Under the pieces are notes generated by a model. The model was not told the DNA's origin. It did not search any database and saw nothing but the letters and a program-made list of their open reading frames with translations. Shown here one piece after another: positions 30,627 to 35,190 of a stretch of DNA of 57,343 bases. The stretch's first letter is position 1. Each line of letters begins with the position of its first letter. Origin of the DNA: a bacterium (GTDB taxonomy: Bacteria; Zixibacteria; MSB-5A5; WJJR01); assembly GCA_021813505.1 (NCBI GenBank), contig JAKAKI010000058.1, forward strand, positions 1-57,343, read 5' to 3'. The position numbers and the translations under genes were made by a program.

Positions 30627-32615
30627 CTAACCTGCACATGGGTTGCAGGGACCCTGACCCCCTGCGAACACGAAATCGATCAGCGCAATGATGTCAAACA
30701 CATCGTACACATGGTCGCAATTGAAATCCCCGCGATGCAAGTGTGGCGGACAATCGGCGTCGATCGGAGGAGGTTCCGCTCCGGCGAAGACGCCATCGAT
30801 CGCGGCGATGACATCGAAAACATCGAACAGATTGTCGCCCGTGATGTCGCCATGTTTGCTGCAGATGCAGGCATCGTTGACCGTGATTGAAACCTGGCCG
30901 GTATCGGCCAGCACACCATCGCCGGCGATGAACGATACCTGGTATGTTCCCTGCTGAGTGATGCCGGGGACGAACACAAGAGTGCCACTCCCATTGCCGG
31001 CATCGGTAAACGATGCATTCGTCAAGGCAACAACTGAGAGAACAGGGATCGTGAAGTTCGAATCGACCGCTTGAACGGCAATCCGAAGAGTGTCCAATTC
31101 TGTAACAGTCTGTGCTCCCGGAAGAATCAGGACCGGTGGCAGAGCGACGGCCACCGCCTGCAACGCCGCGCGGGCATTGATCCGGCCCCATCCATGATAC
31201 ATGTCCCAACCCAGCGTGTCCTCGGCCGGCCTGCCGACGAGATCTTCGGCGGCCTTCTGAATGATGTCCTGGACCTGCGCCGGTGTAAAGGCGGGCCGGA
31301 GCGCTTTCACCAATCCGGCCAATCCAGAGACATGCGGCGTCGCCATCGATGTGCCGCACTTGTAATCGTAGCTGCCGAATTCAAGCGGAACGGTCGACCA
31401 CACCCAGTCGCCGGGGGCAGAGACATCGATGGCCGGCCCGTAATTCGACCCCGAAGTAGGGGAGAAGCAGAAAGGGAGCGCCCGGTAGTCATGCGAGTCG
31501 GTGGCGCCGACCGCGATGACATTGGGGAGGGCCGAGGGGTAATGAGGATCACCGGAGTTATCGTTTCCCATGGCGGCGCACACCGTCACTCCCGCCGTCA
31601 CGGCAAAATTGATCGCTGTGGCTTCCACTCCCGAATTCTGATACGATCCCAGTGACAGGTTGATCACATTCGCGCCATTGTTGGCGGCATAGTAGATACC
31701 ACCAGCCACCGACGAGGCACTTCCGGACCCACTGGCCCCGAGGACCTTGACGGCCATGAGGCGGCATTTCCAATTCATACCGGCCACGCCAATCCCGTTG
31801 TTGGTGAGTGCGCCAACGATTCCCGCCACATGCGAGCCGTGCGAATGATCATCGTCGCTCAGGAAGTTGCCATTGTTGAAATTCCAGCCTTTGATATCCC
31901 CTGCGTATCCGTTGTGATCGGTGTCAAAGTCTCCCTCCGTCTCGTTGACGTTGACCCAGAGCTTGTCCGCCAGGTCGGGATGGTCCCAATCGATGCCGGT
32001 GTCGACAATCGCGATGACGACGTTGGAGTCTCCAGTCGTGAATGCCCACGCGCTTTCCATATCGATGTCGGCACCGGCGAAACCCGGATCGGCGGGTGGC
32101 TGGCTGCCGGTGTTGCGTAACGGATACTGGTGGGTCAGGTAGTACAAGTCGTTGGGCGTTACGTCCGCTTCGCAGATTCGCACAATGGCATCAAACTCAA
32201 TTGAGACGACGTCCGGCAATACCTCGAGACGCTGTTTGAGTGCTTCGGGATCGGTCCCCGCTGGAACGGGAACCGCAACGAAGTCCTCGAGATGACTGGC
32301 TCGGGCCAGAGGCGCCAGCCGGTGCGAGGGAGCGACCGGGGGAAAGACCTGCTTGATGTTGTTAACTCCGGCCTCGGCGAGGACCCGATCGAATCCGATG
32401 CGCCCGGTGTTGCCCATTGTGATCCGGCGCGCATCGCCGGAAATCGGCGCCAGCTTCACGATGATTCGCGAGCGATCGATATCATCGCGTGGGGCGGCAG
32501 CCGCGGAGACCGGTATCAATTGCCCCGCAACGGCCGCGAGGCTGATGACGACAGCCGCCGCAACGCCTCGAGACGTGTGAGTTGATCTGCGCCAGCGATT
32601 GACGTGTTTTGGCAT
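30627..32615 (-). CDS. Secreted subtilisin-like serine protease with paired dockerin-like loops
   Basis: A 662-aa S8 protease: signal peptide (AAAVVISLAAVAGQLIPVSAA), inhibitor-like propeptide, then D205 (VDTGIDWDHPDL), H259 (HSHGSHVAG), N351 (AAMGNDN) and S423 (GTSMATPHVSG). A putative Ig-like domain (about 460-570, LPPVLILPGAQTV onward) follows, and the C-terminus has two dockerin-like loops, GDITGDNLFDVFDVIAAID and GDFNCDHVYDVFDIIALID, ending GGQGPCNPCAG. Cys pairs (CICS, DCPP, NCD, PCNPC) are shared with the next protease and suggest disulfides. Start chosen at ATG 32615, which avoids overlap with the upstream stop; ATG 32639 is an alternative. Ribosome site is weak, so translation may be coupled. 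Confidence 0.88.
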   Translation of the reverse strand: MPKHVNRWRRSTHTSRGVAAAVVISLAAVAGQLIPVSAAAAPRDDIDRSRIIVKLAPISGDARRITMGNTGRIGFDRVLAEAGVNNIKQVFPPVAPSHRLAPLARASHLEDFVAVPVPAGTDPEALKQRLEVLPDVVSIEFDAIVRICEADVTPNDLYYLTHQYPLRNTGSQPPADPGFAGADIDMESAWAFTTGDSNVVIAIVDTGIDWDHPDLADKLWVNVNETEGDFDTDHNGYAGDIKGWNFNNGNFLSDDDHSHGSHVAGIVGALTNNGIGVAGMNWKCRLMAVKVLGASGSGSASSVAGGIYYAANNGANVINLSLGSYQNSGVEATAINFAVTAGVTVCAAMGNDNSGDPHYPSALPNVIAVGATDSHDYRALPFCFSPTSGSNYGPAIDVSAPGDWVWSTVPLEFGSYDYKCGTSMATPHVSGLAGLVKALRPAFTPAQVQDIIQKAAEDLVGRPAEDTLGWDMYHGWGRINARAALQAVAVALPPVLILPGAQTVTELDTLRIAVQAVDSNFTIPVLSVVALTNASFTDAGNGSGTLVFVPGITQQGTYQVSFIAGDGVLADTGQVSITVNDACICSKHGDITGDNLFDVFDVIAAIDGVFAGAEPPPIDADCPPHLHRGDFNCDHVYDVFDIIALIDFVFAGGQGPCNPCAG

Positions 32616-32683
32616 CGGCTGGGTGCCTTGCCGTCCCATCTCAAATGATGCCAAGAATGCCTTCCAATTGTTGGTCTGCCTCG

Positions 32684-34843
32684 TTAGCAAGGATTGCATG
32701 GCGCAGGTCCTCCGGAGAAAACAGACGTAATCGCGTAGATGACATCAAACACATCGATACTGGCGTCGCAATTGAGATCCGCCCGAGTTGCGACAGGGCA
32801 GGCCGGATCAGTCGGCGCCGGTGGAGCGCCGGCGAAGGCGATGTCGATGAGGGCAATGATGTCGAAGACATCGGTCATGGCATCATTGTTAATGTCGCCC
32901 TGATGGCTGCAGTCGCAGGGATTGACCGAGATGGAACCAGCCGAGAAGAAGTTCGGATACCCGTCCTGAAAGTAGGAGGCGAGCCGTAACCGGGTGCTGG
33001 ACCCCAGCCACGCCGTGTCGACAACAACCGTTCCCCCCGGAATCGAATTGAATCCGGCTGTCACCCACAGATAGGCGACAATGCCGGAGCCACCGGACAG
33101 TGACGGCCCATTGCCGCTGACATTGCCGCGCAATACGTACCCCATCTCTCCGAAGAACTTGTTATCGAAGATCAACTGCACAGATTCGAATGCGGCAGTT
33201 CGGGGGCCCCGGGTCAGCGAGTCAATCGTCATTGGCGTCGAACCCGTCAATACGAACGGCAGGTAGATATCCTGCAGCGGATGGGAGTTCGACAAATACA
33301 CCGGCAGGGCGGCCTGTGACCCTTTGTCGAGGCTGATATGGCCATACGACACCGAGTCCACTGGCGTAAAGAGCGTCCCCAGCGCCGCCTGTAAATTGGG
33401 GCGCGGGCCGATGTGATAGATTTGGTTTGGCAACGGCTGCGGGGAACCGGTAGCCACAAGAAGATCTCGAGCGGAATCGGCATCGATGATCTGGCCGAGC
33501 ATGTTCTTAAAGACACCCGAGACGCACGCGACCGAACCGGTCACGATCGGCGATGCAGACGACGTGCCACTGAATCCACTGGTGTACAGGAAGTCCTTTC
33601 CTCCGGCGCTGTGAAGATCACCGTACCCTGTCGTGTAAACCTGGATTCCGTATCCCTGCAAGTCAACCCGGGACCCATAATTGGAAAATCCCAACTTGTA
33701 ACGATCCGGGTTGCTGGGCCCGGGTGGGAATCCCGCTCCACAAACGATGGCGTGGGAATTCCGGAAGGAGCGTTGAAAGAGCTGCCCGTAGATCAATGTA
33801 TCATCGAAATTCTCGGATCCATTCCCCGCGGCTTCACAGACAATGACGCCTTGGGCGTAGGCATTGACGATGGCGGCGAATTCCGCCGGGAAGTACTCCA
33901 TCGCGACATAACCCCTCTGGTCATCGCGCACGGCATAGTTGAAATGCGGGCCAGGACTGTGCAGTTCGATGAGAATCAGATCACCTGGCTGCGATATCGC
34001 CGTTGCCGAATAGATCGCGCCGGCGACAGATTGAGTCATGACGGAGGAGACGCCGATATCTGCCCCGTGGGCGATGCCCGTCATCCCAATCCCATTCCGA
34101 TCCGCCACCATCTCCCCGAGGACGGCGGTCCCATGATCATTGTCAGTGCTGTTGCCATTGATGATGATGGCGCTGGCACCTTTGGAAAGATCCTCGTGAG
34201 TCAGTTGCCAGCCGTATTCGATATCCGTGATTCGGATTCCGGTACCGGTACCGCCGGGCAATGTCCAAGCCGCGCGGGCATGAACACCGTCCGTCGGCGG
34301 ATTGAGGTAGAGTTGGCCGCTCTCGTAATTGGGCGTCGTCATGGCACCCTGAAACGAAGCGACCTCCGGGCGTGGCTGGAAGTAGGCGATTTCGACTTCC
34401 TCAAGTGCGTTGAGCTGGCGCACAACCTCGGCGGCGGTCGATGGGTCGTTAATCAGTGTGTTGAAGTAGAGCGACAAATCGGGCAGGTTGGCCTTGATCC
34501 GATCCTGGGCCGCCAGTCGGCGGTTCTGGATACTCGCCGGATCATCGACGATCATCGGCTCCAGTCCGGGAAGACGATTGCGGGCAATCACACTAACTGC
34601 GGCGCTCGCGCCGATTCCGGCAAGGCGTGTTGTCCCGCTGGATACAGTGGTTCCTTCGCGGAATTTCACGACGATGTGCCCCGGTCCGGCCGCCGAACTG
34701 ATATTGACCTGGGTCGGTTTCACCATGGGACGCAGAGGCCGATATCCGGGAACAGAGCCCGACGCATCCCGGGCGGCACCGTTTGCAGTGCCAGCCAAAA
34801 CGATGACAGCAAAAAAAGCCAGAGCACCCGGCTTACATCTCAT
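32684..34843 (-). CDS. Secreted subtilisin-like serine protease, first of the cluster
   Basis: A 719-aa S8 protease divergent from the other two. Signal peptide ALAFFAVIVLAGTANGA. The triad reads D207 (RITDIEYGW, where the usual DTG is DIE), H237 (NDHGTAVLGE), N341 (CEAAGNGS) and S428 (SGTSSASPIVTG), so the catalytic residues remain. Two dockerin-like loops (GDINNDAMTDVFDIIALID and ADLNCDASIDVFDVIYAI) and GGPAPCNPC end the protein. AGGAGTG lies 8 nt before ATG 34843. It is served by a strong promoter at 34968-34995 and a terminator-like leader hairpin. The three proteases are spaced 68 and 89 bp apart and probably form one operon. Confidence 0.88.
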   Translation of the reverse strand: MRCKPGALAFFAVIVLAGTANGAARDASGSVPGYRPLRPMVKPTQVNISSAAGPGHIVVKFREGTTVSSGTTRLAGIGASAAVSVIARNRLPGLEPMIVDDPASIQNRRLAAQDRIKANLPDLSLYFNTLINDPSTAAEVVRQLNALEEVEIAYFQPRPEVASFQGAMTTPNYESGQLYLNPPTDGVHARAAWTLPGGTGTGIRITDIEYGWQLTHEDLSKGASAIIINGNSTDNDHGTAVLGEMVADRNGIGMTGIAHGADIGVSSVMTQSVAGAIYSATAISQPGDLILIELHSPGPHFNYAVRDDQRGYVAMEYFPAEFAAIVNAYAQGVIVCEAAGNGSENFDDTLIYGQLFQRSFRNSHAIVCGAGFPPGPSNPDRYKLGFSNYGSRVDLQGYGIQVYTTGYGDLHSAGGKDFLYTSGFSGTSSASPIVTGSVACVSGVFKNMLGQIIDADSARDLLVATGSPQPLPNQIYHIGPRPNLQAALGTLFTPVDSVSYGHISLDKGSQAALPVYLSNSHPLQDIYLPFVLTGSTPMTIDSLTRGPRTAAFESVQLIFDNKFFGEMGYVLRGNVSGNGPSLSGGSGIVAYLWVTAGFNSIPGGTVVVDTAWLGSSTRLRLASYFQDGYPNFFSAGSISVNPCDCSHQGDINNDAMTDVFDIIALIDIAFAGAPPAPTDPACPVATRADLNCDASIDVFDVIYAITSVFSGGPAPCNPC

Positions 34844-34928
34844 GTTGTTCACTCCTGATTCAGATTCGGATGGCGCGACGGGAGTGTGAGGAACACCGAT
34901 GCGTCGGTCCAAATCGTGACCTGAACGT

Positions 34929-34955
34929 AAAAAAGGCGTCGCCATCTTGGCGACG
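34929..34955 (-). terminator. Intrinsic-terminator-like hairpin in the leader of the protease cluster
   Basis: On the minus strand CGTCGCCA-AGA-TGGCGACG (34937-34955) is followed by CCTTTTTT (T-run 34929-34934). It starts only about 6 nt after the predicted transcription start and 86 nt before the first protease. In this place it would act as an attenuator, or as the end of a very short RNA. Confidence 0.65.
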
Positions 34956-34967
34956 TACACTGGACTC

Positions 34968-34995
34968 AATATACCTGCGCTTCAGTCCTTGTCAA
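34968..34995 (-). promoter_or_regulatory. Strong promoter of the secreted-protease cluster
   Basis: On the minus strand consensus TTGACA (34990-34995) is 16 bp from TATATT (34968-34973, followed by G). The transcript would start near 34961, giving a leader of about 118 nt. Confidence 0.65.
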
Positions 34996-35190
34996 GCAGT
35001 GAACTTCAAGGTGTCCAACGAATTGGCGCAACTTCTTTGTGTTCGGAATGTCAAGGTCACGATCGTGTTTAGGCGCCGCGCTCCTGCCCGTGTCAACGAT
35101 AGTGGCTGAGTTGACAGCCTTGCTGGACCTGAGACGATTTGGGTTCTATGTTCCTCACTTGCCCCCGGGGTCGCGGGGGAAGGAGGTTCG

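Follow-up and report, generated by a model that had tools for sequence, protein, structure and literature searches.

The subtilase locus

The window, which is the whole stretch of 57,343 nucleotides that was analysed, carries two subtilase genes on its minus strand. The first (32684..34843) encodes a subtilase (S8) of 719 amino acids with a PF00082 match (E = 3.9e-13). Its ATG lies at 34843 and is preceded by an AGGAG Shine-Dalgarno site. Judged by reading the sequence, the protein probably starts with a signal peptide and the protease is probably secreted. The second subtilase (30627..32699, minus strand; PF00082, E = 6.9e-57) lies downstream, and its open frame overlaps the end of the first. 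The two genes likely form one operon. A saccharopine dehydrogenase-like gene (PF16653, PF03435) lies upstream of the subtilase in divergent orientation.

An earlier note on this DNA had called the encoded proteins dockerin proteins. Pfam gives no such domain, as the C-terminal stretches of both subtilases match no Pfam domain at E values up to 1. NCBIfam has no dockerin model among its entries. The name thus reflects appearance only.

This genome is designated G000. The sister species G001 is the only other genome of the same genus among the 58 genomes searched. With 92% protein identity, the Candidatus Zixiibacteriota MAG contig JACRMA010000137.1 is the nearest named relative; it is the same sequence as G001:C63. 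Six family leaders were compared, from G000, G001, G002 (C407), G004, G005, and G006. The homolog in G006 has a shortened frame (349 aa), yet its leader is counted among the six. A paralog in G002 (C409), which is without the consensus promoter, and G003, which is without a full-length homolog, were left out.

A promoter shared across the family

The promoter upstream of the first subtilase is composed of a -35 hexamer, TTGACA (34990..34995, minus strand), and a -10 hexamer, TATATT (34968..34973, minus strand), spaced by 16 nt. The earlier note had proposed this promoter, and the comparison supports it. Both hexamers and their spacing are identical in all six family leaders, although alignment of the surrounding DNA is poor beyond the genus. 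Seven of eight more distant homologs also have a TTGAC-type promoter-like site ahead of them, the exception being the leader at L019, which contains no promoter-like site.

The promoter scores 11 of 12 against the consensus. Two promoter-like sites with a score of at least 9/12 occur in the 4 kb between 33000 and 37000, compared with 1.6 in shuffles, and this one is the better. The exact pattern TTGACA-N16-18-TATAWT has nine matches in the 3.89-Mb genome and seven in the sister genome, while its reversed control has none in either. Footprinting across the family is strong evidence, by which the predicted promoter is well supported. A consensus housekeeping-type (sigma-70-type) promoter would be the best explanation of the two hexamers. 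As estimated from the hexamer spacing, transcription is predicted to start at an A located 7 nt past the -10 hexamer, at about 34961 on the minus strand.

Consensus promoters elsewhere are accompanied by different elements. At L083 and L097, a consensus promoter is kept in both species and precedes an inverted repeat, GCCAAC-AGGAG-GTTGGC, whose arms enclose the Shine-Dalgarno sequence and which is directly followed by an ATG. As the predicted start falls within the first arm, the repeat could be an operator, or an RNA hairpin if the start is earlier. At the centre of L088, a consensus promoter contains TGAACGTTTGTTCA in its spacer, which presumably resembles a LexA/Cheo-type box.

A hairpin and T run close to the predicted start

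A perfect 8-bp stem, CGTCGCCA/TGGCGACG, with a 3-nt loop, AGA, occupies 34937..34955 on the minus strand, at about +7 to +25 of the predicted transcript. Six of the eight pairs are G-C, as expected for the G+C-rich stem-loop of an intrinsic terminator. The stem is followed by two C's (34936-34935) and a run of six T's (34934-34929). The earlier note had described a hairpin with a T6 tail immediately after the promoter; the 8-bp stem and the T6 are indeed present, but the T run is not directly joined to the stem. With CC in between, the U's of the RNA would lie 3-8 nt from the stem base. An RNA terminated there would be about 33 nt long, counted from the predicted start. A further 85 nt separate the T run from the ATG at 34843, and the whole leader spans about 120 nt (122 nt were folded). 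The saccharopine dehydrogenase-like gene is divergent, so the hairpin does not serve to terminate a preceding gene on the minus strand.

The first 30 nt of the predicted RNA fold with a z of -3.7 relative to dinucleotide shuffles, and 1 of 500 shuffles is as stable. The value weakens with length, to -2.8 at 40 nt, -1.4 at 50 nt, and -1.6 for the 122-nt leader. Hairpins with at least seven perfect pairs and a T6 within 2 nt are scarce: a search of 407,144 strand-bases of this genome returned six rows, three of them distinct. Division gives a chance frequency of about 3 in 10,000 per 40-nt interval. Of the other two, the hairpin at L057 lies about 30 nt downstream of a predicted gene, and the one at L058 lies upstream of another gene's promoter-like site. 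Both sit where terminators belong.

T-tailed hairpins in general were counted in a crude scan, which found 13 in 26 convergent gaps versus 5 in 83 tandem gaps. The contrast between gap types is rough, because divergent gaps hold 6 hairpins in 19 and two of these are in the subtilase leader. The gap-type counts also rely on crude gene calls and on a scanner that overlooks some terminators because it can extend the stem into the T run. The promoter-site and leader hairpin counts given below were made with a corrected scanner.

Two further observations concern hairpins of this type. A second T-tailed hairpin is located within the first subtilase codons (34834-34816, minus strand). In the sister species a G breaks up its T run, and the hairpin is thus probably a by-product of Phe codons. 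In addition, GGGTGGGCTCTGCCCACC-type hairpins recur at L060 (5356-5376 and 6911-6925) and L050 (3182, minus strand), and possibly belong to a dispersed repeat family.

Comparison with the sister species

In G001, the hairpin reads CGCCGCCA-AAA-TGGCGGCG, which differs from that of G000 by one loop change and one double change from T-A to C-G. The compensated pair is at 34953/34939. All eight pairs remain intact despite the three substitutions in the hairpin. In a simulation, three random substitutions keep all eight pairs Watson-Crick with a probability of 0.009-0.017, which rises to 0.04-0.15 when G-U pairs are allowed.

The CC spacer and the T6 tail are identical in the two species. They are contained in a run of 46 nt (34938-34893), the longest stretch of identity in the intergenic region, which takes in CC, T6, and the next 36 nt, a downstream leader segment (34893..34928, minus strand). 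The run is barely unusual (p about 0.05), since one as long arises in about 5% of trials when 45 differences are scattered at random over 348 columns, and the run reaches well past the T run.

The substitutions in the hairpin occur at the background rate, with 3 in 19 positions versus 45 in 348 in the surroundings, an intergenic divergence of about 13%. The hairpin may therefore be neutral or recently arisen and of little effect, its conservation mirroring the close kinship of the only two species that have it; its absence from the leaders of other genera fits as well. This explanation is nonetheless unlikely, as T6 hairpins beside a promoter are rare and the pairs have been retained despite three substitutions. 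Selection on the pairing and the tail has modest evidence from a single species comparison. A terminator-like hairpin under constraint is thus modestly supported by one sister species, and the leaders compared from other genera lack the hairpin.

The compensated pair preserves the symmetry of the DNA as well as the pairing of the RNA. The 19-bp palindrome could thus be a DNA operator bound by a repressor just downstream of the promoter, and a perfect 8-3-8 dyad at +7 to +25 is at a usual repressor position. With up to two mismatches, the palindrome is found at eight places in the genome, compared with none for the reversed control. However, no other place has zero or one mismatch, and the seven places with two mismatches all lie within open frames of 759-3018 nt. 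The open-frame argument is soft, because the palindrome in the subtilase leader is itself in an open frame (1545 nt). An operator would also leave the T6 run unexplained, and we consider it quite improbable. The genome search gave no clear recurring site for an operator regulon, though such a regulon, like an operator with a single target, may exist.

The leader was also considered as a coding sequence. In both species no stop codon interrupts the frame between the -10 hexamer and the ATG at 34843. From 34945 on, a hand count of the nine differences places five at first, none at second, and four at third codon positions. The lack of second-position differences has a chance of about 0.03 and is a hint toward coding. 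The leader was not taken as coding, because five of the nine differences alter the amino acid, and because a Shine-Dalgarno site and a likely signal peptide accompany the ATG at 34843.

Two short motifs were noted in the leader. CCTCAC (34886..34891, minus strand) is common to five of the six family leaders and absent in G005. It lies 70, 70, 72, 105, and 91 nt after the predicted start in G000, G001, G002, G004, and G006, respectively, in leaders that align poorly. As a genome-wide leader motif it was rejected, with 0.171 occurrences per kb in leaders versus 0.227 elsewhere and hence no enrichment. Within the 203,572 bases of this genome that were covered, the 10-mer TGTTCCTCAC has two copies, one per divergent leader, at 34895-34886 on the minus strand and at 35149-35158 on the plus strand. 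The sister species retains the one that precedes the saccharopine dehydrogenase-like gene.

Distribution of the hairpin

The earlier note had suggested comparing the leaders of related genomes for the same hairpin. In the homologous leaders compared outside the genus, the hairpin does not recur. No T-tailed hairpin is present within 230 nt after the -10 hexamer in the four family leaders from other genera (G002, G004, G005, and G006), nor within 80 nt in the seven more distant leaders that have a promoter-like site. G002 has a weak hairpin at the same place, which is no more stable than shuffles and is followed by TTTA in place of T6.

A covariance model of the 57-nt element, R1, was run against the 58 genomes. 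Its strong matches (E about 1e-23) are confined to G000 and G001, at the subtilase locus in both. In a further 13 genomes the matches are weaker, with E values from 0.02 to 0.92 per genome. Five of these weak matches (L064, L066, L067, L069, and L077), read on their sense strand, are all T-tailed hairpins; by eye, none has a comparable -35/-10 pair in the 75 bases ahead.

The dockerin-type leaders fared no better in the suggested comparison. Among the matches listed for this genome, the arrangement is found in 1 of 18 leaders of genes that are related mostly by their C-terminal domain. In one other of these leaders, a T-tailed hairpin lies at -242 and a promoter-like site follows it at -133. 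The 18 leaders were drawn from 19 scored of 119 first-look candidates, with start codons guessed by a script and some of them perhaps wrong. Two of the 20 listed G000 matches were left out, C79:2356 and another one that lies in a gene already counted. A leader element shared by dockerin-type genes was rejected on the count of 1 in 18 among the matches listed and on the restriction of strong R1 matches to this locus.

Promoters of the same kind were surveyed in a similar manner. Of the 16 exact-consensus promoters in the two genomes, only the one described here, at one site in each genome, has a T-tailed hairpin within 80 nt; in this genome the arrangement accompanies one of nine. Among promoter-like sites with scores of 10/12 or better, counted over 203,572 bases of this genome, the proportion is 1 in 16. 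T-tailed hairpins have a background of 58 in 407,144 strand-bases, or 0.011 per 80 nt. About 0.18 chance neighbours would be expected for 16 promoters, and rarity alone is thus no proof of function. By its distribution, the T-tailed hairpin seems to be a feature of known kind, confined to one gene in one genus.

Terminator strength and possible mechanism

Terminator strength was estimated by a formula of the d'Aubenton-Carafa type, with placeholders for the last five tail bases of the comparison hairpins. The formula gives a d score of -25.5 for this hairpin and -14.8 for that of the sister species, compared with +46.7 and +35.4 for two strong hairpins of the genome. The negative score is due to the CC spacer between the stem and the T run, and without the spacer it would be +25.8. 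The earlier claim that the hairpin would end most transcripts is not supported by such a score. Termination at this site is geometrically possible and likely partial. The U's are 3-8 nt away from the stem base, and reported terminated 3' ends have a median distance of 4-6 nt in vivo and 7-9 nt in vitro (PMC12207403).

The RNA ahead of the stem consists of AGUGUA only, about 6 nt from the predicted start, and folding of the first 40 nt yields the one hairpin only. With so little RNA before the hairpin, an attenuator of the leader-peptide, T-box, riboswitch, or antiterminator type would not fit. Leader RNA downstream of the T run would be made too late to form an antiterminator before the polymerase arrives there. 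Given the predicted start, no antiterminator or sensor of a classical RNA attenuator was found at the 5' arm of the stem. A search of the whole window against Rfam at gathering thresholds returned three tRNAs only and no leader RNA family. One downstream candidate, a partial copy of the 5' arm at 34880-34871 that could pair with the 3' arm, was rejected by reading the sequences, because the polymerase has already left the T run behind when the copy is made, and because the sister species has an altered version. A compact attenuator, as the earlier note had suggested, is possible, but the 6 nt or so ahead of the stem leave no room for the usual sensors. The other suggestion, the source of a small RNA, finds no support: the RNA would be about 33 nt long, and the identical run continues past the T run into the leader.

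We tentatively favour a partial, sensorless intrinsic terminator that is proximal to the promoter, and give it somewhat less than an even chance, with start, termination, and regulation all predicted from the sequence. The consensus housekeeping-type promoter would drive the subtilase operon, probably of two genes. The intrinsic terminator, of moderate or low efficiency, would then free a share of the RNA polymerase after about 33 nt. The remaining polymerase would read through into the leader of about 120 nt with its strong ribosome-binding site. Regulation, if any, would come from factors bound to RNA polymerase (of the NusA/NusG type), from a hairpin-binding protein, or from the speed of elongation. 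If the efficiency is unregulated, the element would act as a fixed throttle. A function of the hairpin as a terminator is open to doubt because of the negative d score, the occurrence in two genomes only, the background substitution rate, and the fading significance of the fold. A more specific version seems highly doubtful, namely a minimal sensorless attenuator, complete within about 33 nt of the start, that gates the secreted protease operon in early elongation, its efficiency being set by polymerase-bound factors.

The weak terminator score fits read-through and is compatible with a stabilising role of the hairpin. In that case, the near-terminal stem-loop and the strong Shine-Dalgarno site would shield the protease mRNA from decay that depends on the 5' end, and the T run would be incidental. 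Only some 6 nt separate the predicted 5' end from the stem, the gene has an AGGAG site, and a precedent exists for the same kind of gene. According to PMC11805744, removal of the 5' stem-loop from the aprE (subtilisin) leader of B. subtilis lowered mRNA stability from over 25 to about 5 min. The aprE leader also resembles the present one in having a stem-loop before a subtilisin-family protease and a strong ribosome-binding site after it. It differs in coming from an unrelated organism; here, CC and T6 follow a stem that begins about 6 nt into the predicted RNA. The 6 or so unpaired 5' nucleotides weaken the case. RppH of B. subtilis needs at least two unpaired nucleotides, prefers at least three, and wants a G at the second position, according to PMC3997798. 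The predicted end AGUGUA suits such an enzyme, and protection would be incomplete if one is present. Moreover, the T6 run is left unexplained, and the start-proximal RNA of the four family leaders from other genera shows no clear gain in stability over shuffles (best z -1.5). A stabiliser is thus a minor possibility.

Relation to known systems

Classical transcription attenuators, including the leader-peptide, T-box, riboswitch, and LicT/TRAP types, place a terminator in the leader ahead of an operon. The subtilase leader shares this layout. Unlike those attenuators, it has no RNA before the hairpin for a sensor or an antiterminator and no Rfam leader match.

Intrinsic termination within a leader is known for ispU/uppS of E. 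coli, where it is the source of IspZ (PMC7815308). In that system, a 6-bp stem is followed by eight U's, and RNAs of 60 and 81 nt are formed (PMC7815308). The two leaders are alike in carrying a terminator-like stem and a U run between promoter and start codon. The present one differs in that CC precedes six T's only, and its RNA of about 33 nt is a prediction from sequence. Among the papers listed in a literature search on the phylum, no transcription studies of Zixibacteria were found.

The hairpin with its T run is a real sequence feature and a plausible, probably partial terminator of one gene in one genus, possibly new but ordinary in kind. If it does not work as a terminator, it is a local curiosity of one gene. 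If it does, it would show that a promoter-proximal terminator can throttle a gene without an upstream RNA sensor. The conserved consensus promoter suggests that housekeeping sigma-70-type promoters are predictable in Zixibacteria, which would help annotation.
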